DNA from: Phaeodactylum tricornutum CCAP 1055/1
Taxonomy: Eukaryota; Bacillariophyta; Bacillariophyceae; Surirellales; Neidiaceae
Direction of reading: 5' to 3'
Assembly: GCF_000150955.2 (NCBI RefSeq)
Contig: NC_011700.1
Location: forward strand, 1 to 64,000
DNA: 64,000 nt
Shown piece after piece: positions 12,258 to 59,751 of the stretch. The position numbers and the translations under genes are program-made. The notes below the pieces were generated by a model that worked only from the letters and a program-made list of their open reading frames with translations, ran no database searches and was not told where the DNA came from. The stretch's first letter is position 1. The number at the start of each line of letters is the position of its first letter.

Positions 12258-13437
12258 AAGAGGAGCTGGGCCGAACGCACTAATGTAAAACCCCCTATTT
12301 TGCGTTTTTGAGCTCAAGCGTGAATCAAGCGTTCCTCAACATACATGTACGTTCTACGAACAAGCAATATTTTACCAGAACCGATTGATATATTGTTCTT
12401 TTATCGCTCGTCCAATGACTTTTGGACCGAAGGCCGCTACAAATTCCTTTTTCGGTGTCCCCCTTTGTTAAAAGTGATGTTTTTCAGAGGAAAAAGCGAA
12501 GGCAACATCAATAAAGGGAGGACTGAAGAAAAAGCCAATATCATAAGCCTATTTGAACCCACAGTCGTCTCCTTAGCTCAATGCGCACTCACTTGATCAA
12601 GCGAAAGTCAGTATAAGACTGGCCTCCAGCTATAGAATCCAATATTGACAACTTTGTTAGTGCGATTTTTTACGTCACTCGAAAGGCTAATGTTTACACG
12701 ACGAATTTGAAACTTATGAGAAAAAGTATGGAACCATGTCCTCTATCTTGTCGACGCTCGTCATCCCTCTCAGTCGCAAATGCTGATCTGTACTGCTGCG
12801 TATCCATGAGATGTCTGAGGCTACATCTCTTTTTTATGTTCCGCATCATTCTTTATTGACAACCTGAACATCGGAAGGCAAGTGTGACGAATATGAGAGG
12901 TGATGGCATTCTGATAATTTCAAATGCTTCCAAGACAGAGGATGCTTCGTTTCTTGTTACAAGCAAGCAATGCAGGCGAAGACCCTCTCTGAAAGTCAGA
13001 TTACAAGGCAATCGATGCTTTGTAACGGGTGATATACAAACCTTTTTTTCTTATGTAAATGATGAATGGACGTTTCTATATTTATTAGTACCGCCTAGTG
13101 CTCGTCCGTTGTGAGGTTTACCCACTGTCATCCAACCTACACTAACGTAACGGAAAGCAAATGGATAGATGGACAGGCGCTTTTGATGATTAACTGTAAA
13201 ACGTTATTTAAGCTGCATCAAATATGGATTTGCTTCCGACAATGGCATGGAAAACTAGTATTTCGTTTCGCATTTTGTCAAGCTGAGACAAAACCATTTG
13301 AAACGGAATTCTCAATTCGCTTCGCCAAAACTCGCGCGCTGAAATGCTGCTTCCCCATCCAGTTCTACGGACGCCTTGCATAAGACAATTGATTGCTCAA
13401 GATAGCTTGTATCTTCTGTCAATAATATTTGTTGGCA
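12258..13437. other. Spacer, no gene seen
   Basis: 1.2 kb of AT-rich sequence with short open frames that lack recognisable motifs or codon bias. It probably holds the 3' end of the lipid kinase transcript and the promoter of the next gene. Confidence 0.4.
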
Positions 13438-15166
13438 ATGAGGATTGGTTCTGTTTTCGCCCTGGTTTTGTATCTTCTACGAACTCAAATAGGAGCTTCT
13501 GACCTTGTTTACCTCGTCGAACCTTTGCTAAAATGGCAACGAACCCTTCCGGGCGGAGGTTCGATCAACGGTGCCTACATAGCGCCAAACAGGAACAACT
13601 TGTTTGTAATATCTAGTGTGTGTACGGTGCAAGCTTTGGATCCAAGAACGGGTGAGAGTGTCTGGACATACCAACCAGGCAATCCATCTACATGTTCAGG
13701 CGGAGTGACTTTCAGCGATGGCGTAGGTACACCTTACCTGACCTTCATAGAAAGCACAATAAATTTGGGGCCGACACCATTTTCAACGTAAGCACTGCTC
13801 AATGATAAATCTTTCGTCTCTGCTGCGCTTTTTCTTACCTCAACGCAAAACCATTTCGATTTTTTATCAGCCAAGTAGTCATTCTGGATCTTAACTCAGG
13901 CGTTCTATTGGCTAAATCAGCATTTCTGAGCGGGCAGGGGGCTGGAGAGCCACAAACTACAGAAGACGGACGGTACATTGTGGCAACATCGAACACGGCC
14001 AATATCGGGACTTTTGTCGTTATCGACACAAACGCTGTTGAAAACGGCATCGCTCCGATAGTTTTTGAAGAAAGCAATCCCAGCGGTCCTTTTTCGCCAG
14101 TCGGATTCTACCATAGGCCTACAACACCCATTTTTTTTGGTGGGAACACAAACGATGTTTTTGTTTGGGCCTTCGATCTGACTCAAATGCAGTTGGTAGG
14201 AACTGAGGCTATTGAAAACGGTCAGATTTTTTCTTTTCAATTTCCATCCAATTACGCAAACAACGGTGGCGGCCTTTCGGTAAAGACACTTGGGCCAAAA
14301 ACTTCGTGGAAAGCGTCTACACGCCCTCTTTTATCGAACGGTGGCAAGAGCAGTAAGTACCGAATCAATACTATCAAGATGCAAGGATTTCGATACTAAA
14401 AATTTTCCCGACCACTTTTTTAGTGCACTGGGCAAACAGCGACGGCCGTTATCGCGTGTGGATCAATCGCACCGTTGATGATTCTCCAACCACAGTGCTG
14501 TCACTGCCAAGAGGAATACCTACATCTGTGTCTGCACACGCAGCTCCCGTACTTGGTCAAGATGAAACAAACCCATTCGTGTACCTCCTCGGCCCCAATC
14601 CCAGTGTTTTTCGATCAAACACAAACTTAACCACTTCAGTTGGTCTTGGCGTAGACTCCTTATTCACAGGACAAATTTTACTCTCTCCAAAAGAGGAATA
14701 TATGTACATCGCAACTGAAGGTCGCCCGGAAACGTCGAGGGGCATTTTGTATCAAATCAAGAACGAAGAAAATAGTCTTACCGTCGACTGGTTGTTTCGT
14801 GCGGAGTCACCAATGTCCGGCGATCTTGCTCGTAGTACCGATGGTACAACAATCTTCTTCGGACAACGCGACGGGACTGTTTCGGCGCTTGAAGTCGCTG
14901 AAGCGGAGGAGGAGTTGCCGTCCTCAACTCCAGCAAGTGCTCCTGTTTTCGCCCCTGCAGTTTGTCGAGAAATTGGTGCAATTTGCGGTTCCACTACAAC
15001 TGAGCGGCCGTGCTGTTTCCCATGGCTATGTGACGCGGGAGTGTGTCGTGTACCGTCAAGTCGCACTGATCCGAAGACCGCATTGAAATCTGACCTCACG
15101 ACGGCTGGTAGCATCGGTATCCTCCGACCTCGAGGTACCATCAGGCGTGATCCTCTTCGAAATTAA
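13438..15166 (+). CDS. Secreted beta-propeller-like protein with six-Cys tail
   Basis: Three exons: 13438-13787, 13871-14352 and 14424-15166. Introns begin GTAAGC and GTAAGT and end CAG and TAG. All joins keep frame, for 524 residues. The first ATG is at 13438, and the N-terminus (SVFALVLYLLRTQIGAS) is a signal peptide. The body has PQQ/quinoprotein-like blades (VQALDPRTGESVWTYQ; VVILDLNSGVLLAKS; YMYIATEGR), suggesting an eight- or seven-bladed propeller. A Ser/Pro linker leads to a cysteine module at nt 14963-15046 with pattern C-x6-C-x8-CC-x4-C-x4-C (contains PCCFPWLCD), then a basic tail. The Cys module recurs in the gene at 17385. Probably extracellular; ligand unknown. Confidence 0.75.
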
Positions 15167-15330
15167 CTTTGCCGGAGCGCATGATCAAAGTGAATCACCT
15201 GAAGTTTATCTAATCATAGTCAGTAATCATTCTTAATGCACGTTATAGCCTTTACTTTTCATATAAATGCAAGACGCAGGCTTGATCACTCGGAGTAAAA
15301 CTAATTGCTAAAATAGACCATTTCTTTTAG

Positions 15331-16869
15331 CTACTGACTTAAAGCGTATAAAATTTGTTCAATAACATAATTGCTGGATGTTCCCGCCTTTAGGTATTTC
15401 ACATTCAAGTAGCCTTGATTGCTGTATAGTTCTTCGTCTCGTTTTTGCCCGTTTATTTGATAAAACAGTATCACTGTCGAGTCGCGAGCGCAAAACAAAG
15501 AGGATGCGGATCCCCCGCCATTGTTTGACAGGTACACGTGAGCTTGCGAAGCTTCCAATATTTGATCTTTCAAGGAAAGGCTAGCCATGTTTACAACGTG
15601 TACCGACGAGCGTCCGAAGGCATGTTGAATTGCGGGAATCATAGTGTCGAAAGACTCAATCCCGACGTGAGAATTACCGAAGGGTAAAGCAACCAGAATC
15701 CGTCCAGGTATTGCAGACTGCCGACTATATTGATTTCCAAGTTCAGGGCCAAATAAATTTGAAAAAACCCAGGCTCTCATGCAATATATACGCGATACCC
15801 GTTGGGCACCGCACGGACCAGTGCAACCGAAGTATGCCAGGTCACCGGTGCCGACAAGCACTACGGGAAGCTGGACAAAAATTCGAGGGTTCTCGTGATG
15901 GCTTTGCCGAAACAAATGCTTCATACTAAGGATGTCATCATTCTGTTCCTGAACGGGTTGAACACCCATTAAAGGAGCAACTCGTTTGTACATCTCGACA
16001 CATTCTTTCCACCGAGAATGGTGATTACAGCGGTAGAAGAAGTCGTGCTCTTCGTTTGGAAAGGTGACAGGTATGTGCTGATAATTGGTAGACAGCGACG
16101 GGTTTCCGACCTCATCGGATGCGTACCCAAATATATCCAGCAATGAGAACAATGACAATAGATCATCAAACACGAAATGGCCAAAATTAAATACATAGCT
16201 CAGTTTGTACAAAAGAAAGACGGGCATCTTTTGATTTCGCAAAGCCGCCACACTTACAACATTGCTGTGATCTATTTCTGATGAATTTGAGTCGAATAGA
16301 TGTAGCTTTGGGGTAAACGATGCGTTCCTACTCTCTGCAAAAACAAATTCGTGCCGTCGTTTTGGCTTGTTGTATAGACTGCGCGGCACATAGCCCTTAC
16401 TGGTCGTGATTTGTTTTAGAAGCGCAGTGGTGTTCTCTCCCACGAGGCGCGATTGCAATGGCGAAGCGTAGTAGTGAAAGGTGCAGTCGAACGGTCGAAA
16501 ATACAAGTTGCGAAACTGGCATGATCTTCCCACATAGTCAGGAATGCCAAACCGAGTTGGGTCTGGATGATCGGTAATACTGTGGTGCACACAGCGATGT
16601 GATGTATAGCGAGACTTGGAGCTGAAGTGCCGGGTCGCCAGTGGGCCTTCACCATGGTGAGTACTGTTCCTTAAAACAAGCTCATTCCACAAGTTGACTG
16701 TAGGCGTCCTAGCATGAACCGTCCGGTTCGCGACGGTTGGTACAGAGAATATCCGAAATGGAGACGACGAAGGCAGCCCGATGCGTGACACCGATGCTAC
16801 GAGGGAAATAGCTACGCTGGTCGCCGCCAAGAAGGCGACTAATCGAATGCGACGACGACTTAAATGCAT
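15331..16869 (-). CDS. Type II membrane glycosyltransferase, GT61 (DUF563)-like
   Basis: Single exon, 512 residues, starting at ATG 16869. After a basic stub comes one membrane anchor (VAFLAATSVAISLVASV), as in Golgi type II glycosyltransferases. The lumenal part has the GT61/DUF563 signs. FGHFVFDDLLS stands in the place of the usual FxHwhfd-type block. A later segment has GIESFDTM and DQILEASQAHVYLSNNGGG, where the family normally has hGaxlxn. Lumenal Cys residues are several. Expected to transfer a sugar such as xylose or arabinose onto glycoproteins or wall polysaccharide; donor and acceptor are unknown. It converges on the propeller gene and shares a divergent promoter region with the secreted protein at 17385. 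Confidence 0.65.
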   Translation of the reverse strand: MHLSRRRIRLVAFLAATSVAISLVASVSRIGLPSSSPFRIFSVPTVANRTVHARTPTVNLWNELVLRNSTHHGEGPLATRHFSSKSRYTSHRCVHHSITDHPDPTRFGIPDYVGRSCQFRNLYFRPFDCTFHYYASPLQSRLVGENTTALLKQITTSKGYVPRSLYNKPKRRHEFVFAESRNASFTPKLHLFDSNSSEIDHSNVVSVAALRNQKMPVFLLYKLSYVFNFGHFVFDDLLSLFSLLDIFGYASDEVGNPSLSTNYQHIPVTFPNEEHDFFYRCNHHSRWKECVEMYKRVAPLMGVQPVQEQNDDILSMKHLFRQSHHENPRIFVQLPVVLVGTGDLAYFGCTGPCGAQRVSRIYCMRAWVFSNLFGPELGNQYSRQSAIPGRILVALPFGNSHVGIESFDTMIPAIQHAFGRSSVHVVNMASLSLKDQILEASQAHVYLSNNGGGSASSLFCARDSTVILFYQINGQKRDEELYSNQGYLNVKYLKAGTSSNYVIEQILYALSQ

Positions 16870-17384
16870 TCCTTGCTTAGTGGAGGACTAAGCTTGTGTT
16901 TACACTCAATTGCCGATTGCTCGGAGACATTCTTTCGTTATTGGAAGAGGCATGGTGAGCAGTCATTCATGTTTGATTGCCCTGTCAAAATCGTACCGCT
17001 ATTTTATGCGTGTTGGCAGCTTCTACAAACTGTGTCGGTTGGGAAAGATTTAAAACTTCAAAATACAACTTACATATGGTATTCAACCTTTGAACTTTGA
17101 TTTTTTGACCTATACTTCTATGGTTGAAGGTGGGAACCTTCCGAGGTTCTCAAAATTTTTTACATACATCGCTATCCTTAAGTTTATATATGTGTGATAA
17201 ATGTGTATTGTACCAAATTTTGTAAGTGGTCACAAACCGGGAATAATCCCAGGATTGACAGTGAGTGTTCCAATCGCAGGCTAACTGTAAAGCTGCACGA
17301 GTTTGGAAATGAACGCTTCCAAAAAGTATACAAATCACACCTTGATAAAGCTGAACACCAATCACTTGATTGCGTTTCGGCAAA

Positions 17385-17894
17385 ATGGCGTTTGGTTCTG
17401 TCCTCAACTCAGCCCTCGTTTTAGTGCTGGCAGTGGCTGTCCTGGCCCAAATCGCTCTTGCTCAAGATGTCGAAGGTCTGCCAAGTGCCACACCCAGCCA
17501 ATCGCCTGCTTCCGCAATAACGGTGAGCGCCTTGCCGAGTACGGCGCCAACCATAGAACGCAGTGCAGCTCCTACTTCAATGCCTTCCTCTAGTCCTTTC
17601 GGCTCGCCGGCTGTCTGTAGCCGCGCAGGTGAGACTTGCAGTGGCGCGGGCGCCCTCCCCTGCTGCTTTCCCGCGTTGTGCGACCGCGCGAGCAGTGTTT
17701 GCGTGAAGACAACGGCCGCGGATTCGGCGGCCTTTAAAGATGGACTACGTAGGGACCTTCTGTGTGGACGCTCCGTTTCCCCTTCTGACTGTTCGCCTTT
17801 CGATCGTGTGCGTGGCGGAATTGTCACCCCCTCCACTCTCCGAGGCGGTCGAGGAGACGGTCGACGAGTACTTTTGAAAGGTTCATCGGAGTAA
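17385..17894 (+). CDS. Small secreted protein with knottin-like six-Cys module
   Basis: 169 residues. The open frame begins at TTG 17370 but the first ATG is at 17385. A strong signal peptide (LVLVLAVAVLAQIALA) precedes a Ser/Thr/Pro-rich linker suited to O-glycosylation. It is followed by a cysteine module at nt 17616-17702 with spacing C-x6-C-x7-CC-x4-C-x6-C (contains PCCFPALCD). This is the inhibitor-cystine-knot spacing and is nearly the same as the tail module of the gene ending at 15166. The remainder is Arg-rich with two more Cys and RxL-type sites (RRDL). Secreted or wall-bound; role unknown. Confidence 0.7.
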   Translation: MAFGSVLNSALVLVLAVAVLAQIALAQDVEGLPSATPSQSPASAITVSALPSTAPTIERSAAPTSMPSSSPFGSPAVCSRAGETCSGAGALPCCFPALCDRASSVCVKTTAADSAAFKDGLRRDLLCGRSVSPSDCSPFDRVRGGIVTPSTLRGGRGDGRRVLLKGSSE

Positions 17895-25000: not shown

Positions 25001-26257
25001 ATGAACTTAGCATTGTTCCTGTTTCTTTGTTGCGCTATTCTTGCCATGCGCGGCTTTGTTTTCTGTGATGCGTCTTCCGTATCTCTACCAGGGGAAGATA
25101 GTCCAAGGCTCGTCAACTACAGCATGGAGTTTGTTGAAGTAATCAACGAGAACAACAAAATGAACGTTAAGTTTGAGAACAGCCCTGGGGACGGGTCGCT
25201 GGAAGGTCGTTTCGAAATCTTCGTTCCGGATCAATCACAATCAACAAGAACAATCAGCGACATCAATAAATCTTGCTACAGCGATGGAGGCAAACTGTAT
25301 ATTGGTCCGGGTATCTCCATATTCGAATCTTCTATTGGTGAATCACAGTCTACCTTCTCATTTGCTTTTGACAAAAATGTCAATGAAAAGCTTCCCTTCT
25401 ACTATCGTGTATCTAGCGACAAGGCCAAATTCCAAGTCTGCGTGAAGTTCACGATGTCAAAAATAGTCAATGACAGGAAAACAGACATCTTGTTTCGTGA
25501 AGTTGCCATATCTGTTGATGTTCATCTTGATGGGCTTATTGTTAGCTCGCAACCAAGAGGCGAATCTAGCGCCCAAGCGACGGCGCAGATGGCACAGAGC
25601 AAAACAGTCTCCGTAGAACCAATTCCCATTCAGGCTAGCGTTTGTGATGGCTATAGCGATGCTACCATCGCGGGCGACGTTGTACCGCTATGTCTTTATT
25701 CGACGAACCCAGACAGCCGTATTCTTTCGGTGCTAGATGTCGAGATATTCAATGACAATCAAACGCAAATATTTGCGCAAGACGGATCCACATCTGCCAG
25801 AAGAGAGGCTCTGAATTCTTCTTTGGCTATCACAACTAGCAAAGTTCATTCGAAAAGCTATGCTCTTTGCCCTGAAGGGCCCTGCGTGCACCTCGACTTT
25901 GACGTTTTGCGATTCTTCCCTTCGCCTTATGGTTCCACTTTCTTGTTGATAGGCATAGTGATATTTTCTGTGGAAAGAGGCAGTCGCTCGGCCGGCGCTC
26001 TCGTACCTCAAGAGAGCCACAGTAATCTACTTAGGCAGGGAGCTATTCGTGAGGACAAGAGTGATTTGCTCAACCGGAAAGTATATCAGTACTTTGAAAC
26101 TTCCTTTGATATACCTTCGCTTGCTGTGCTGGGAGCACGAAACAGCAAAACCTCGGCGAGCTTCACGTCTGACACATCCGCAGCCGTGCGGGTAGGAGCA
26201 AACCTGTTATCTCTTGTCTTGACAGTGGTGGCCGGTCTTGCAATATTCATGGTGTAG
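25001..26257 (+). CDS. Secreted or surface-anchored protein, intact copy
   Basis: Single exon, 418 residues, starting at ATG 25001. An N-terminal signal peptide (LALFLFLCCAILAMRGFVFC) and a C-terminal hydrophobic end (LLSLVLTVVAGLAIFMV) preceded by small residues suggest a GPI anchor or a tail membrane segment. The body is rich in beta-type sequence with potential N-glycosylation sites (NYS, NKS, NQT, NSS) and paired Cys. I recognise no family. A degenerate paralogue lies at 29812-30860 in the same orientation. It shares YSMEFVEV-like and CYSDGGKLYIGPGIS segments, so the locus is a tandem duplication later separated by a 2.5 kb inverted-repeat element. Probably a diatom-specific cell-surface protein. 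Confidence 0.75.
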   Translation: MNLALFLFLCCAILAMRGFVFCDASSVSLPGEDSPRLVNYSMEFVEVINENNKMNVKFENSPGDGSLEGRFEIFVPDQSQSTRTISDINKSCYSDGGKLYIGPGISIFESSIGESQSTFSFAFDKNVNEKLPFYYRVSSDKAKFQVCVKFTMSKIVNDRKTDILFREVAISVDVHLDGLIVSSQPRGESSAQATAQMAQSKTVSVEPIPIQASVCDGYSDATIAGDVVPLCLYSTNPDSRILSVLDVEIFNDNQTQIFAQDGSTSARREALNSSLAITTSKVHSKSYALCPEGPCVHLDFDVLRFFPSPYGSTFLLIGIVIFSVERGSRSAGALVPQESHSNLLRQGAIREDKSDLLNRKVYQYFETSFDIPSLAVLGARNSKTSASFTSDTSAAVRVGANLLSLVLTVVAGLAIFMV

Positions 26258-39100: not shown

Positions 39101-40067
39101 TAGCCATGGTTGCCTACAGCAAGAAATACAGTCTCACATTCCCTCCCAGGCACAAAGCTTTACTGAGTGGAGCTACGGTTGCCGAGGACCGCCTTTGTCG
39201 GTGGACTTCGCACGTGCGCTCCAGCGACCCGGCAATGTACCAGGCGCCGGATTCGACCCTCCGCCGAGATCGATTCCCTACGACACTGTTGGACCCTTCT
39301 CACAGTCTGGAAATGTTTCTGATCAACATGGTTGGCCTGCCCATGGTACACCTGGATCGGGTTTCGCCGTTGGCTCACTTTCAGCGACGTCGATGCAATT
39401 TCAGCCTGCTCAAGGCGGTCAACAAAAAAGAGCAGAGGGCATCAGCAATATGGGAGCATCGTCTTTAAGTTCTTCTTCCTTTCCGCATGGAGTGTGGCAT
39501 CGTGTGGATGTGCCAACGCGATCAGTAGAACCTTCGAATGACTGTATGCCACAATCTGCAGCTCCGACCTTTCGAAAGCAATTGCAGACGGATCAGCGAC
39601 AAACGTTTTTGCTACAGCAACAACAATTGGCCTTGCTTAATTCACAGCAGCAAGTCCGTTTAACAAACCAACATGAAAGAGGCAGTGTGCACCAACACTC
39701 ATATCAGCCCCTTTGGAGACCCGATGAGGGGCATCTGAGGACTCCTTTGGAGGCGAATCAACCAGAGCATTATCCTGAACAGAATCAGATCTTTGTGGCC
39801 GAACCTGAGGGCTGCAATGTACATCGCTCTTACATGGCAACGAACGGGAGTGGTCAGCCCACTTTGTCGCCAGCCGTTGGGACGTTCAATGAGATATCGC
39901 CTTCGATGGGTTGCTACTATCCTGGCCCTTTACAGCTGCACTTGCAGTCGTACACAACATCGAAATCCAGTACGAAGCAATCCGGACAAGATTCAAATAA
40001 TATACCGCAGTCACGTAGGATCTACAATGGACAGCACCATCCTTACTTAGGAGGAACGAGCATGTGA
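36185..40067 (+). CDS. DYRK-family protein kinase, YAK1-like
   Basis: ATG 36185. A disordered N-terminal region of about 355 residues precedes a DYRK kinase domain: GQGTFAQVFG, VAVKIVK, HCDLKPENVLL, an insert of about 65 residues, LIDFGSACF, and the activation loop TYIQSRFYRSPEV. The second Tyr of the YxY pair is present; the first position is His. Also present are DMWSLGCVAAELFLGLPILPG and PAWMLEQGAKTSKFF. The C-lobe end (QWRIKTQQEYIA; KYFKRKRLSDI; LLDPDPWKRTTAFQALHHPFL) lies one frame over. Frames overlap at 38100-38272, and dropping one T from TTTT at 38174-38177 joins them smoothly. A Gln/Ser-rich tail of over 450 residues ends the protein. YAK1 kinases link nutrient or stress signals to growth arrest; here that is by homology only. 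Confidence 0.85.
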
Positions 40068-49729: not shown

Positions 49730-50980
49730 TCAAATCCCCTTGCCTTTTCCTTTGCCTTTTCCTTTGCCTTTACCATTAGGTGATTTGTTGGAACCTTTGC
49801 CTTTAGAGGAGGCATCTAAGCCCTTGCCCTTTCCTTTGCCCTTTCCCGCCTCGCCGTTGCCAGAGCCCTTGCCCTTTGAGGAGGCGTCCAAGCCCTTACC
49901 CTTTCCTTTGCCCTTCCCGTGGTCGCTGCCCTTGCCGGATTTGCCACTGTCGCTGCCCTTGCCGGACTTGCCACTATCGCTGCCCTTGCCAGACTTGCCA
50001 CTGTCGCTGCCCTTGCCAGACTTGCCACTGTCGCTGCCCTTGCCGGATTTACCACTATCGCTTCCTTTACCGGACTTGCCACTGTCGCTGCCCTTGCCGG
50101 ACTTGCCACTGTCGCTGCCCTTGCCAGACTTGCCACTGTTGCTGCCTTTACCGGACTTGCCACTATCGCTACCCTTGCCTTTGGAGGATACACTTGAGCC
50201 TTTGCCGGACTTGCCGCTGTCGCTGCCCTTGCCGGATTTACCACTGTCGCTTCCTTTACCGGACTTGCCACTATCGCTGCCTTTACCGGACTTGCCACTA
50301 TCGCTGCCTTTACCGGACTTGCCACTGTTGCTGCCTTTACCGGACTTGCCACTATCGCTGCCCTTGCCTTTGGAGGATACACTTGAGCCTTTGCCGGACT
50401 TGCCGCTGTCGCTGCCCTTGCCGGATTTACCACTCTCGCTTCCTTTACCGGACTTGCCACTATCGCTGCCTTTACCGGATTTGCCACTATCGCTGCCTTT
50501 ACCGGACTTGCCACTGTTGCTGCCTTTACCGGACTTGCCACTATCGCTACCCTTGCCTTTGGAGGATACACTTGAGCCTTTGCCGGACTTGCCGCTGTCG
50601 CTGCCCTTGCCGGATTTACCACTGTCGCTTCCTTTACCGGACTTGCCACTATCGCTGCCTTTACCGGATTTGCCACTGTCGCCGCCTTTGCCCTTGGAGG
50701 ATACACTCGAACCTTTACCGGACTTGCCACTGTCGCCTCCTTTGCCCTTAGAGGAACTACCAAGGCGTCGGACAGCTTCGAATTGGTCAGCCTTTGGGGT
50801 GATTGCCGTGACTTTTGTCGCGGGAACCGCGAATGTATGTTCTTGAGTGTCTTGATACTTGTGAAGCGAAGCAGCGTTTTCCCTAGACGCATCGGTTTCC
50901 CTATTCCGCAAGATGGTGGTGGTACAGGAAAAGAATAGCAAAGCTGCTAGCCCACCACGGAACAAGGCATTATTGATCAT
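49730..50980 (-). CDS. Secreted Lys/Ser/Gly-repeat protein, silaffin-like
   Basis: The open frame begins at GTG 51004; the first ATG is 50980, giving 416 residues. A signal peptide (LFRGGLAALLFFSC) is followed by an ordinary stretch of about 60 residues ending RRLGSSSKGKGG. The rest is about 26 copies of the nine-residue unit DSGKSGKGS, broken at intervals by SVSSKGKG. It ends in pure GK-rich sequence (NGKGKGKGKG). Silaffins, the diatom proteins that precipitate silica, are secreted, Lys/Ser-rich, modified on Lys and Ser in KxxK or SK contexts, and processed at RxL sites; RRL here fits. No homology search was possible, so biosilica function is inference from composition. The antisense open frames are by-products of the repeat. 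Confidence 0.75.
   Translation of the reverse strand: MINNALFRGGLAALLFFSCTTTILRNRETDASRENAASLHKYQDTQEHTFAVPATKVTAITPKADQFEAVRRLGSSSKGKGGDSGKSGKGSSVSSKGKGGDSGKSGKGSDSGKSGKGSDSGKSGKGSDSGKSGKGSSVSSKGKGSDSGKSGKGSNSGKSGKGSDSGKSGKGSDSGKSGKGSESGKSGKGSDSGKSGKGSSVSSKGKGSDSGKSGKGSNSGKSGKGSDSGKSGKGSDSGKSGKGSDSGKSGKGSDSGKSGKGSSVSSKGKGSDSGKSGKGSNSGKSGKGSDSGKSGKGSDSGKSGKGSDSGKSGKGSDSGKSGKGSDSGKSGKGSDSGKSGKGSDSGKSGKGSDHGKGKGKGKGLDASSKGKGSGNGEAGKGKGKGKGLDASSKGKGSNKSPNGKGKGKGKGKGKGI
49905..50770 (-). repeat. 27-bp tandem repeats coding DSGKSGKGS
   Basis: About 26 units of 27 bp, with higher-order blocks marked by the SVSSKGKG spacer at roughly 50172, 50358, 50553 and 50691. Third-position variants (GCC/GCT, TTG/TTT) differ between units, so the array is not freshly amplified, but block copies look alike. 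Confidence 0.9.
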
Positions 50981-52067
50981 GATGTTAACTAGAAAACGAA
51001 TCACTCGGAAGCGATGAGCAATTTATGGTTGGAAGTTGTGAACGCGTTGATGCGAAAGACTGAATTGAGAGTTGTGCGATGGGTCGATGGATGCAAAATA
51101 AAAGTGAGGAGCGGGAGCTGCGAGGTTTGAAACGCACTCTTGTTTGATTTCCGTTGCGCTGCGAGGGTTCTTGCTCGATTTATGACCGTTTGCCCTTTCT
51201 CTTCTTAAGGAAACAATTTTCAATGACAATTTTCTCCAGTTTTATTTAACTCACTCTTATGATATAGTATTTGGGTAGCAGTTTCAGGTAGTCAACATCT
51301 TGGACGAAATTATCGGATCAGCGTCTCGAACGAGGAGCTTGTATCGTGGAGCGGAGGGCCTTTTGCCTCCAAATTTTCCACGGAGTCGCGTATTGGTTCT
51401 ATCAGACAAAATAGAGGATAGATTTTTGAACTGGACGAATATGAAATCTACGGTATGATATTTTGCATACATATGCACTAGTTGTTATCTTAACGTTGAA
51501 GTTTTCTCATCCGACTCCCAAAACTACAAAATACTATGAGACGAAAAGACACGATTGATAATCCGTGCCAAATTAGAGAAAAAATAAACACTTCAACGCT
51601 TTCGAAAGAAATTTCGAGTGACATTTTCAGTTTGTGGTGGTGGTGTGATGGATTGGATTTTACACTTATGGCGATGAGCCGTAAAATATGAGTATATATA
51701 TATTCCTACATATATCAATAAATCTCACAGTCACGAATCGGACGCAATGCCGATTCGGTTTGTAACTTTAAAGTGCAAATTTACGTTTCAAAGACCCAAT
51801 TTCAATCGCATGAGTTATTGGAGAACAGAGAATGGCCGTACCTTCCTATATACTAGGAAATGCATCCTGCTCAGAAAAACCAAGCCTCGTCAGGACCTTC
51901 GACGATCCACCAGTGTCGACCGCCAATCTCATCGTTCGGAGAGACGGACGAAGAGAACCTTGTAGAAGAATGCACTTCGCTGGGGAATCCCTTCTACCGC
52001 GTAAGGTCACGGGATGCGTGGACTGCGTACCTAGATTCGAATTGATTGTGCCTGATCTGTACTCATC
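50981..52067. other. Divergent spacer, no gene seen
   Basis: Between the repeat protein (-) and the Dus gene (+). TCACAGTCAC occurs near 51727. (AT)n-like sequence is near 51690. Open frames at 51747-52077 are not supported. Confidence 0.4.
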
Positions 52068-54990: not shown

Positions 54991-55884
54991 ATGACACGCT
55001 TGGTGGCTTCCGTTCTTTCGTTGCGCACGATTGCGCGTACCTTTCCCGACGTGGCACATCGACTCGCCCACCGCGCGATCGGCTCCAAAACGGGAAAGGT
55101 CAAGTTCTATCTCCGCGACAAGGGCTACGGCTTCATCACGGCCGACGGCGCCGGAGATGGCGACATTTTCCTGCACCGCACGGCGTTCGTGACGCACGTT
55201 CCCCCGGAGCACCTCCGCCATCCCTTTGCGCGGGAGCACGAACGCGTTAGTTTTGACACCCAGGTGGATGCTAGCAGCGGACAAACCCGGGCCGTCAACG
55301 TCACGTGGATCAATGGCGAGCCCATTCCTCCGCTGCGCCAGAATTTCTTGGGCACCGCGTGGGAACGTGTTCATCGTGATTTGGGAGAAGCCGTCTACCG
55401 GATCTTGTCCAATAAAGTCAGCGAGAATGCCTTGTCGGAAGCGGAACAGAACGAAAAGATTCGGGACGCTTATGCATTCCAACAGACGAAAATCGACGAG
55501 GCTCATCAACTTATTGTCAATTTGGGCATGGACGTTGCAGACTTTCCCGTCTACCGATCGGAAAACAACGGTCGAGTGCTTTTCAAGCATGTCAGGGACG
55601 AAGATGTCATCACACCCGACCGTGTGATCTTGGAAGGAGCTACTGAAGAAAAGGAGCCAAACATTGTACCCGACCAAGTGAGCTTTGGAGATGCTGCTGA
55701 CAGCGACGAGCCAGGCAACAATGTAGCCGACCAAGTGAGCTTTGGAGACGCTGCTGACAGCGACGAGCCAGACAACAATGTAGCCGACCAAGTGAGCTCT
55801 GGAGACGCTGCTGACAACGACGAGCCAGGCAACAATGTAGCCGATGCTGTGGAAAACGAGACGGGAGACGTCGAGGTGAAATAA
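54991..55884 (+). CDS. Cold-shock-domain protein with organelle-type presequence
   Basis: Single exon, 297 residues, from ATG 54991. The basic, Ser/Arg/Leu-rich start (TRLVASVLSLRTIARTF, then AHRLAHRAIGS) looks like a mitochondrial presequence. A cold-shock domain follows (TGKVKFYLRDKGYGFITADG, DIFLHRTAFV), with the RNP1-like KGYGFI and RNP2-like DIFLH motifs for single-stranded RNA or DNA binding. The middle is helical and unassigned. The C-terminus has three copies of a 19-residue acidic repeat (starts DQVSFGDAADSDEPG) and ends acidic. Role in organelle RNA metabolism is inferred from targeting and domain. Confidence 0.85.
   Translation: MTRLVASVLSLRTIARTFPDVAHRLAHRAIGSKTGKVKFYLRDKGYGFITADGAGDGDIFLHRTAFVTHVPPEHLRHPFAREHERVSFDTQVDASSGQTRAVNVTWINGEPIPPLRQNFLGTAWERVHRDLGEAVYRILSNKVSENALSEAEQNEKIRDAYAFQQTKIDEAHQLIVNLGMDVADFPVYRSENNGRVLFKHVRDEDVITPDRVILEGATEEKEPNIVPDQVSFGDAADSDEPGNNVADQVSFGDAADSDEPDNNVADQVSSGDAADNDEPGNNVADAVENETGDVEVK
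55672..55842 (+). repeat. Three 57-bp tandem repeats
   Basis: Three in-frame units starting at about 55672, 55729 and 55786, nearly identical and each coding a 19-residue acidic segment. The near identity indicates recent duplication or homogenisation. Confidence 0.9.
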
Positions 55885-56175: not shown

Positions 56176-59100
56176 CTACTGGAGATCTCTTAGAAGACGG
56201 CCTCTTCGCCGCGTTCCGGAACCGACAGAATTCTAGAAAAAGGAAGAGAATGTCAGTGATGAAGTTTTACATTAGGGTCGTATTCGGGCGAGGTTGAAAC
56301 TTACTTCACCAGATTTGGGGTTGGGCATACCAGATTTGGGGTTGGGCATACCAGACTTTTCGGTGACGTCAATACCAGAAGTGGGTACATCTCCCTTAGA
56401 AGTTGGGACACCAGTCTTAGCCGAAGGGGTGGGAACGCTTCCCTTCGACGTTGGGACGCCTCCCTTAGAGGTAGGGGTGCTTCCCTTCGAAGAAGGTGAG
56501 GCTGAGGGAAGTTCAGCACCTCCAATAGGCGCAGTGGGTAAGCTTGTGGCCGGGACGACTGGTGCAGGTGTGGCAGGTACAACCGGCGCAGGAGTGGCCG
56601 GGACGACTGGACTACCCTTAGAAGAGGGCGCGACAGTGGGGACACCTCCCTTAGAGGTAGGGACGCTTCCCTTCGAAGAGGGTGAGGCTGAGGGAAGTTC
56701 AGCACCTCCAATAGGCGCAGTGGGTAAGCTTGTGGCCGGGACGACTGGTGCAGGTGTGGCCGGGACGACCGGTGCAGGTGTGGCAGGTACAACCGGTGCA
56801 GGTGTGGCAGGTACAACCGGTGCAGGTGTGGCAGGTACAACCGGTGCAGGAGTCGCTGGGACGACCGGTGCAGGTGTGGCCGGGACGACTGGACTACCCT
56901 TAGAAGAGGGCGCGACAGTGGGGACACCTCCCTTAGAGGTAGGGACGCTTCCCTTCGAAGAGGGTGAGGCTGAGGGAAGTTCAGCACCTCCAATAGGCGC
57001 AGTGGGTAAGCTTGTGGCCGGGACGACTGGTGCAGGTGTGGCCGGGACGACCGGTGCAGGTGTGGCAGGTACAACCGGTGCAGGTGTGGCAGGTACAACC
57101 GGTGCAGGAGTCGCTGGGACGACCGGCACCGCTGTGGGAATTTCTGCTTTGTCAATGCCCTTTGAAGGGGCCGATGTCGGTGTCTTGGTAGATCGGGCCT
57201 TGGTAGGGCGGAAAGTCGGAAGGCTCGTTGGGATCTCTGCGCCACCAATGGGTATGGTCGGGGAGGAAGTGGGAGCCGAGGTTGGGACATTGCCAATGAT
57301 AAACTCGTAAATATCATTGTCCTGGCAGAAAGGTCCATTTTCCGGTTCAGCTTCGGCGTCAAGAGTCACACGGTAAACGCGATTCGGAATACAGACGTCA
57401 ATAGTGAACGACTCTGAAATCGTCGTCATAACACCAGCAGCTAACGGGTTTGGAGTCAATTGATCAACGATATCGTTAGTCACAGTGTTGAATTTCCTGA
57501 ATATGGCGGTCACTGTAAAGGCGTTGGGACCCACGTTCTCGAAAGTATACACGAAGTCAAGGACAACTTCACAGATTCCACCGGACGATGCAACCAGGTC
57601 ACTGCAAGGCTGTCCTGTCCCATTCACCGTACACTCTATGTCAACTTCCACCAAGCACAGGGCGTTGGAGGGTCCGGCAGTAGGGGCGCCAGTTAAGGCA
57701 GGAGTGGGTAGAAGAACGGGCGCCCCAGTAGGCGCAGCGACCGGCTGGGCAGTAGGGACTTCAGCTCCTCCGATATCTTCGGTAGGTTGGGAGGTCGACG
57801 TCGGTGCCTTGGTGGAACGAGCCTTGGTGGGACGGAAGGTAGGCAAGCCGGTCGGGATTTCAGCGCTTACCAGCGTGGGTCCAGGGGTGGGAGTAACTGG
57901 AATGGATTCCGCAGTTGGCAAAATGGTAGCAACTGGTTGACTCGTGGTGGCCGGAACTGGCGCGGGCGTGATACTGCCGCCTTCTAGGGTTGGCAAAGTG
58001 GTCCCGACTCCAACAGGCCCCTTGGTGGAACGGGCCTTGGTGGGGCGGAAAGTTGGTATTTCTGCGACTTCCAAGGTAGGCAATACTGTGGGAGGTACTA
58101 CCGGAGCAGGTGTAGCGGGGACCACGGGAGCAGGAGTCGCGGGCACAACCGGAGCAGGAGTCGCGGGGACCACGGGAGCAGGAGTCGCGGGGACCACGGG
58201 GGCAGGAGTCGCGGGGACCACGGGGGCAGGAGTAGCGGGGACAACCGGTGCAGGTGTAGGTGCGCCGGTCGGGAGCTCAACGATCGCCAAGGTGGGTCCA
58301 GGGGTTGGCGTAACCGGAATGGATTCGGCAGTGGGCAAGGCCGTAGCACCCGGAACTGGTGCGGGTGTGATGCTGCCACCTTCCAAAGTGGGTAGAGAGG
58401 TCCCGACGTCAGACGGCGCCTTGGTGGAACGGGCCTTGGTGGGGCGGAAAGTCGGTGTTTCTGTAGGCAATGCGGTCGGGGATGCATCTGGTGCCGGAGA
58501 CGCGGGGACAGGAGCAGGAGTCGCAGGGACCGGGGCAGGGGTCGCAGGGACCGGGGCAGGAGTCGCAGGGACCGGGGCAGGAGTCGCAGGGACCGGGGCA
58601 GGGGTGGGAGCCACCGGGGCAGCAGTAGGGATTTCCGCAACAACAGTTGTAGGAGTGGTCGGACGCTCGTTGATACTGAACTCGATGACATCGTCCGCGA
58701 GACAAACGGGCCCGTTGGCTGGCTCTGCTTCTACCGCAATACTGATCCGAAAAAGTCCAGGAGTACAGACGTCAATGGTGAATTCTTCCGAAACGGAGGT
58801 GCTTTGTCCGGGGAGCAATGGGTTGGGAGTCACTTGTGAGACCAGATTCTCCGCCACTCCATTGAAGTCACGGAAGAGATCGAGGAAGGTCATGGAATCC
58901 GGTCCTACATTGCTGAGGTTGTAGACAAAGTTCAATTCTTCAATGCAGGTAACATCGTTGCACGAGACCAAAATGAGTGATCCGAAGGAATCCTTGAGGT
59001 CCAAACTGACATCTCCGGAAAGATCAAACGTGTTGGTTTGCAGGACAGCACCGGAGCCAGTGTCCGAAATCGTGCATACCATACTCAAGGGAAGCGGTCC

Positions 59101-59751
59101 TCCGTTCATTTCCTCGACGGTAAAGGTGTCTCCCGCTGTGATTCCAGAGCTGGGAGTCACCGTCAGTACAATGGCACTCATCTCAGCGTTGTCTTCACAG
59201 ACAATAGAGACGTCGGCACCCGAGGGTGGGACACCCGGACCGACATCCGAACAGACGGCGTCTGTCCCTTGATCGTTATCGCCTCCCGCGCACGGTGTGC
59301 TCTGAAACTCGAAGGTGACAATGGAAAGGTCCGATCCGTCCGCGGGGACGCAGATTCCCAAGGGAGGAGCCGTAAGCGACTCGCAGGGTAATCCAGAGCC
59401 TCCGAGAGTGCACGTAATGTCCACATCAACGATGCACTCCGAAGGAACGAGAGGAGCTTCGGTGGGAACTTCGGCCCCGGCGAGAGTGGGTCCGGGCGTG
59501 GGAACAAGACTGTTCTCGTCCGCAGTCGTCAACTGCAGGTAGCGGAGGAGTTCTTCGTTGTACGAACGGATCAAGTCGAGGCCGCGCTTCTCTTCGGAAC
59601 TCGCGTTGCTCTTACTGTCGCTGTTCGCACGACGCTTGCGAGAAGCGAGCTCGGGTCCCGTGATGCTCGAGGACCCTTGGGCCTGTGCTCCCGAGAACAT
59701 CGTAGGAGAAGCCAGCAGCAGAGCTGCGGCTGTGGGGAGGAAGAGTCTCAT
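56176..59751 (-). CDS. Large secreted PAPVVPAT-repeat protein
   Basis: Two exons: 59751-56305 (1149 codons) and 56232-56176. A 72-base intron (GTAAGT to CTAG) replaces the apparent end at 56272; the true tail reads NSVGSGTRRRGRLLRDLQ. About 1167 residues from ATG 59751. A signal peptide (LFLPTAAALLLASPTMF) is followed by a basic patch and LLRYLQL. Two related globular domains begin VDITCTLGGSGLPC and VDIECTVNGTGQPC. Each runs to a segment like NVGPDSMTFLDLF or NVGPNAFTVTAIF and ends in AEPANGPVC or AEPENGPFC. Between and after them lie long Pro/Thr/Ala tracts (PAPVVPAT, STKAPT, SSKGSVPT) suited to O-glycosylation. Probably a wall or adhesive glycoprotein; function inferred from composition only. 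Confidence 0.8.
56500..58660 (-). repeat. Pro/Thr/Ala coding repeats
   Basis: 24-bp units coding PAPVVPAT and 18-bp units coding PAPVPAT-like sequence are grouped in blocks separated by STKAP/FRPTKARSTK and SSKGSVPT segments. A block of roughly 300 bp near 56640-57010 repeats almost exactly, with different numbers of PAPVVPAT units. Confidence 0.85.

Follow-up and report, generated by a model that had tools for sequence, protein, structure and literature searches.

The window analysed here was positions 1-64000 of contig C32 of the Phaeodactylum tricornutum genome, and the genome searched consisted of 27,450,724 bases in 88 contigs. Two neighbouring genes on the + strand of the window, one for a propeller-like secreted protein and one for a small secreted protein, were found to share a six-cysteine module together with the end of a Pro/Ser linker. 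The features of the locus were as follows.

13438..13787, + strand: exon 1 of the propeller-like secreted protein, with a signal-peptide-like start MRIGSVFALVLYLL, an open frame and a GT donor at 13788
13871..14352, + strand: exon 2 of the propeller-like protein, bounded by the GT-AG introns 13788-13870 and 14353-14423
14424..15166, + strand: exon 3 of the propeller-like protein, with the end of the propeller, a Pro/Ser linker, the six-cysteine module, a tail of 39 amino acids (aa) and the stop
14963..15046, + strand: six-cysteine module 1, residues 458-485 of the propeller protein: CREIGAICGSTTTERPCCFPWLCDAGVC
15331..16869, - strand: glycosyltransferase-61-like gene (512 aa) between both module genes, with a PF04577 match (expectation value, E, 8e-5) under the Pfam gathering cut-off (23.3 vs 27 bits)
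17385..17894, + strand: small secreted protein (169 aa), a single exon with a signal-peptide-like start, a Pro/Ser/Thr linker, the six-cysteine module and an Arg-rich tail
17616..17702, + strand: six-cysteine module 2, residues 78-106 of the small protein: CSRAGETCSGAGALPCCFPALCDRASSVC

Splicing of the three exons gave a propeller protein of 524 aa, and the Arg-rich tail of the small protein contained two additional cysteines. Both proteins had a near-identical entry in a protein collection of about 5.8 billion proteins. Entry P0002 (524 aa) was 99% identical to the propeller protein, with four differing positions, of which only residue 463 was in the module; the cysteines were all the same. 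Entry P0001 was 99% identical to the small protein, with a single difference located by eye in the signal peptide. The glycosyltransferase-61-like gene had one further genome match at E <= 0.001 (25% identity, on contig C1).

Both modules lay in open frames and followed the common pattern C-x6-C-x7/8-CC-x4-C-x4/6-C with the core PCCFPxLCD. The spacing was x6, x8, CC, x4, x4 in module 1 and x6, x7, CC, x4, x6 in module 2, and alignment of the modules gave 14 invariant columns, namely the six cysteines and G, S, P, F, P, L, D, and V. The positions, pattern and core agreed with a first-pass annotation of the same DNA, which had also reported a glycosyltransferase gene between the two hosts and had placed the modules at the ends of the proteins. 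The modules were in the C-terminal part but not at the extreme end, with 39 aa after module 1 and 63 aa after module 2.

The shared unit began upstream of the first cysteine, in the Pro/Ser linker (PSSTPASAPVFAPAVC in the propeller protein and PTSMPSSSPFGSPAVC in the small protein). BLASTP of the last propeller exon against the small protein gave E 2e-9 (a value for this single comparison), and in genome searches each gene recovered its partner, with E 8.6e-5 and 1.5e-6. When the module alone was shuffled, the observed score was reached by 0 of 5000 plain shuffles and by 2 of 5000 shuffles with the cysteines fixed. For the 25 residues upstream of the module, 14 of 5000 shuffles scored as well, which was suggestive, but the stretch is of low complexity. 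These shuffle and BLASTP results showed that the homologous unit was the linker end plus the module, a stretch of about 43 aa from which the tails are excluded. In the codon alignment, the third positions were identical in 7 of 27 cases, and the first and second positions in 32 of 54. Since third-position agreement was this low, the duplication was considered old; as read from the sequence, the copies are old ones with randomised silent sites, in which the protein and not the DNA is conserved.

Comparative genome analysis revealed one clear relative of the propeller protein, L026 on contig C4 (C4:716043-717882), which was 36% identical (175 identities in 487 aligned positions). In the C4 gene, introns 1 and 3 matched those of the window gene in alignment column and phase (phase 2 at column 120 and phase 1 at column 293), and there was one extra intron besides. 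Two propeller cysteines were common to both proteins. The C4 paralogue was without the six-cysteine module; after the shared '..VAE' end, it continued with a Pro/Ser/Thr/Ala linker, and its last 13 residues were hydrophobic. A hydrophobic C-terminus of this kind directs glycosylphosphatidylinositol (GPI) anchoring. The comparison showed that the propeller body was constant and the tail different between the paralogues. The propeller paralogue on C4, with an anchor-like tail instead of the module, is a new observation, and this tail exchange suggests that the module may be an alternative attachment or binding tail.

The likeness of the host to PQQ/BamB-like beta-propellers consisted of weak profile matches of P0002, all under curated cut-offs: PQQ_2 with E 0.0023 (18.1 bits vs a gathering cut-off of 27.6 bits in Pfam) and the ACSF4 propeller with E 3e-5 (24 vs 133 bits), the NCBIfam matches being weak too. 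A bacterial origin of the propeller was considered and rejected, as no relative was encoded in 18 of 18 pattern stretches from one scan of bacterial and archaeal genomes.

A repeat scan detected a similar stretch of 18 nucleotides (nt), 83% identical, around the ATG of both window genes. The two starts were compared with the ATG starts of the window and of most loci retrieved, in a test that was chosen after the repeat had been seen and in which ranks count self. At 45 nt, with 365 signal-peptide-like ATG starts compared, the small gene ranked 3rd when the propeller start was the query and the propeller gene ranked 2nd when the small start was; the propeller gene was thereby the best non-self match of the small gene (score 33.5 vs 30.0 for the next). 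At the protein level, 3 and 11 of 590 other signal-like starts scored at least equally, and the fractions among signal-like starts were about 0.003 to 0.03. Both propeller introns fell in the part that is absent from the small gene. Taken as suggestive, these observations point to a small gene that may have been a local duplicate and would have lost everything from the signal peptide to the linker, both introns included. The marks of a local duplicate, neighbouring copies with significant similarity, were found for the module unit only, and a gene on the opposite strand lay between the copies.

Further members were sought in the genome with four queries, namely the propeller tail (86 aa), the complete small protein, the unit (41 aa) and the module (29 aa). 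Only the two window copies were found genome-wide at E 0.01 or better with all four queries, and the 29-aa module matched itself alone at E up to 10. Across the genome, CCxPxLCD had two matches, both of them the window modules, on the same strand and 2.65 kb apart, and its reversed pattern, used as a control, had one. CCxPxLC had 22 matches (30 for the reversed control), and a six-frame scan of 22/22 loci showed six spaced cysteines only in the window pair. CCFxxLC had 47 matches (37 reversed) and PCCFP had 18 (13 reversed), two being the window sites in each case; the module was absent from the 30 loci examined of the former and from the 8 examined of the latter. The real and reversed counts were close, so the looser-core matches were mostly due to chance. 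The weak genome matches L011, L014, and L015 were without the module, and L016 and L017 (E 5.8 and 7.8) had no PCCFP frame. The window has a third site that codes for CCFP, at 13345, which was rejected because no cysteine followed downstream in that frame. These pattern and similarity searches would miss divergent copies that keep the cysteines without the core.

Searches by cysteine spacing covered a six-frame translation of 266,413 bases (66 sources, some overlapping). Strict spacing gave five matches, which were both modules and three overlapping ones antisense to a repeat at 50.1 kb. Looser spacing, applied to six frames of the window, gave both modules, a group of overlapping frames between 50.08 and 50.56 kb that is antisense to a repeat, and a frame on the - strand at 39,599-39,697. 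The last is a short cysteine-rich frame, at most putatively coding, that fits the loose six-cysteine spacing.

In the protein collection, the small protein returned only the near-identical P0001 (1 of 869 candidates, E up to 10), and the propeller protein returned only the near-identical P0002 (E up to 0.01, 7993 candidates scored). Residues 462-510, a query without the first cysteine (residue 458), returned one near-identical protein from three candidates (E up to 10). The search with the propeller protein failed to return the 36%-identical C4 paralogue; either these searches are insensitive or the collection is without that gene, and its silence on other diatoms is weak.

The explanation we favour, with a probability of about 0.5, is that both genes share one homologous extracellular unit from an old local duplication on this chromosome, that this unit is a disulphide mini-domain tail, and that the small gene arose as a duplicate from which the propeller is missing. 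The unit left by the duplication would be the end of the Pro/Ser linker and a six-cysteine mini-domain of 28-29 residues. In the secretory pathway, the six cysteines may form three disulphides and give a small stable domain, which the linker would hold away from the propeller. From the layout and the C4 tail exchange, the mini-domain could be a tail by which its protein binds or attaches in the cell wall or matrix; the C4 linker with its GPI-like hydrophobic C-terminus and the six-cysteine tail would then be alternative extracellular fixings for one and the same propeller. The small protein would consist of the tail alone, most likely a duplicate after propeller loss. If true, this is a small case of how diatoms alter where a secreted protein is held, in which the copies of one propeller body on two chromosomes end in a hydrophobic anchor and in a disulphide-rich tail, respectively, with a lone tail adjoining the latter; a further gain would be a small disulphide-rich domain without a Pfam match in the scans made here. 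As a tentative possibility, the mini-domain may be lineage-restricted and replace a membrane-anchor tail on a propeller of the diatom surface, and the soluble lone tail could be a competitor or a partner of the propeller at the same wall or matrix site.

Several points weigh against the local duplication and the role proposed for its product. The tails downstream of the module could not be aligned (2912 of 5000 shuffles scored as well). The N-terminal similarity of the two genes is weak, was tested post hoc and is suggestive at best: at 60 nt the partner was 42nd and 36th when all 7657 starts were ranked (13th and 15th for the 498 that are signal-like), and at 75 nt it was 21st and 12th of 7651 starts. 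The 75-nt scores were 36.0 for propeller/small, 31.0 for C4/propeller and 20.0 for C4/small, and at this last value the start of the small gene is unlike that of the C4 paralogue. The propeller label of the host is a weak one that comes from sub-threshold Pfam matches. The disulphides, the fold and the binding activity are predicted. The direction of change may have been either a gain of the module at the window locus or its loss on C4.

The first-pass annotation had read the same pair as a mobile module, that is, a shuffled extracellular domain passed by tail transfer between unrelated neighbours and widespread in diatoms. The hosts are indeed dissimilar apart from the shared unit, and the C4 paralogue is a propeller able to bear a different tail; the odds of this reading are raised slightly because the collection search missed that paralogue, so that its silence counts for little. 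Nevertheless, transfer of a mobile module appears unlikely. At the sensitivity available the genome held just two copies, which are neighbours, and the scan of the 22 CCxPxLC loci and the protein collection added no other protein. An absence of other members was the outcome that the annotation itself had named as counting against its proposal, and within the limits of the searches this was what the genome and the collection gave. Exon shuffling fared no better: module 1 sits some 540 bp into the last exon, the small gene is intronless, and neither module is adjoined by an intron. Of the first-pass interpretation, a shared homologous secreted six-cysteine unit of local origin was retained and its spread as a mobile module was not; a knottin module shuffled through diatom secretomes was not borne out by what was searchable. 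Two cysteine-rich tails of like spacing might also have originated independently, given that the module is short and that the C-C-CC-C-C order is found in other peptide families in the part of PMC6042386 used here. Eight non-cysteine identities in the same order, the similar linker, the 2 in 5000 cysteine-fixed shuffles and the position of the genes as neighbours on one strand make such convergence very unlikely.

The nature of the unit raises two further explanations, both of which concern its fold and function. Knottin disulphides join C1-C4, C2-C5, and C3-C6, and the loop lengths of the modules presumably fit the knot consensus. The C-C-CC-C-C order of both modules is compatible with an inhibitor cystine knot and is the order of cystine-knot alpha-amylase inhibitors, as given in the part of PMC6042386 used here; the earlier statement that the spacing fits such a knot holds at the level of spacing, from which a cystine knot is possible. 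Six-cysteine peptides with other connectivities are described in the same part of that source, so the cysteines alone are no proof of a knot. With the amylase inhibitors the modules share the cysteine order, the small size and the secreted context, and they differ in that no similarity was found beyond the cysteines and in being an appended domain in larger proteins. A Pfam scan at E up to 10 matched no family to either module (the HMMER filters drop most very weak matches), and PDB sequence searches gave two weak matches (E 0.25 and 0.59) that keep at most one cysteine, a third search giving none. Two single-sequence AlphaFold runs were of low confidence, with mean predicted local distance difference test (pLDDT) values of 46.8 and 40.8 overall and of about 55 and about 40, respectively, within the module. 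Among the literature matches listed (titles and abstract openings), no knottin or cystine-knot module was reported from a diatom. On these results, it is doubtful that the module is a genuine inhibitor cystine knot that acts in defence or inhibition, be it as a protease or amylase inhibitor or as an antifeedant.

A carbohydrate-binding tail, in which an enzyme or propeller is followed by a linker and a small cysteine-rich domain that binds wall polysaccharide, is doubtful to the same degree. The layout, in which a Pro/Ser/Thr linker joins a small disulphide domain to the main domain of a secreted protein, is one we take to be analogous to that of CBM1 (fungal, oomycete) and hevein-type domains, and the glycosyltransferase-like gene between both genes agrees with it. 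The modules differ from these domains in that no CBM or hevein match was obtained in the same Pfam scan, with its filter limit, and in cysteine spacing, which we take to be different in CBM1 and hevein.

Other secreted diatom proteins offer looser comparisons. The vWD/GDPH trail proteins resemble the window proteins in being secreted, and adhesive roles were proposed for those of S. robusta in the part of PMC7335047 used here. They differ in that no vWD match was found in the Pfam scans, and the word 'cysteine' is absent from the main text of that source. In mating diatoms, a beta-propeller protein may act as a receptor or in adhesion, according to the part of PMC8027222 used here, and any kinship of it with the window propeller is hypothetical.

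Four other open frames of the window were recorded. The frame at 25001-26257 (+ strand, 418 aa) had a signal-like start and a hydrophobic C-terminus that was anchor-like by eye. At 49730-51004 (- strand), a frame of 424 aa contained about 28 copies of a 27-bp unit (KGSDSGKSGKG repeats) and also a higher period of 189 bp; it was Ser/Lys-rich, a richness that presumably recalls silica-associated diatom proteins. The frame at 54991-55884 (+ strand, 297 aa) had a start that by eye looked like a cold-shock domain, and a 57-bp repeat was present in 3.2 copies at its end. The frame at 56272-59751 (- strand, 1159 aa) opened with a signal-peptide-like sequence and contained long repeats of PAPVVPAT and FRPTKARSTK.

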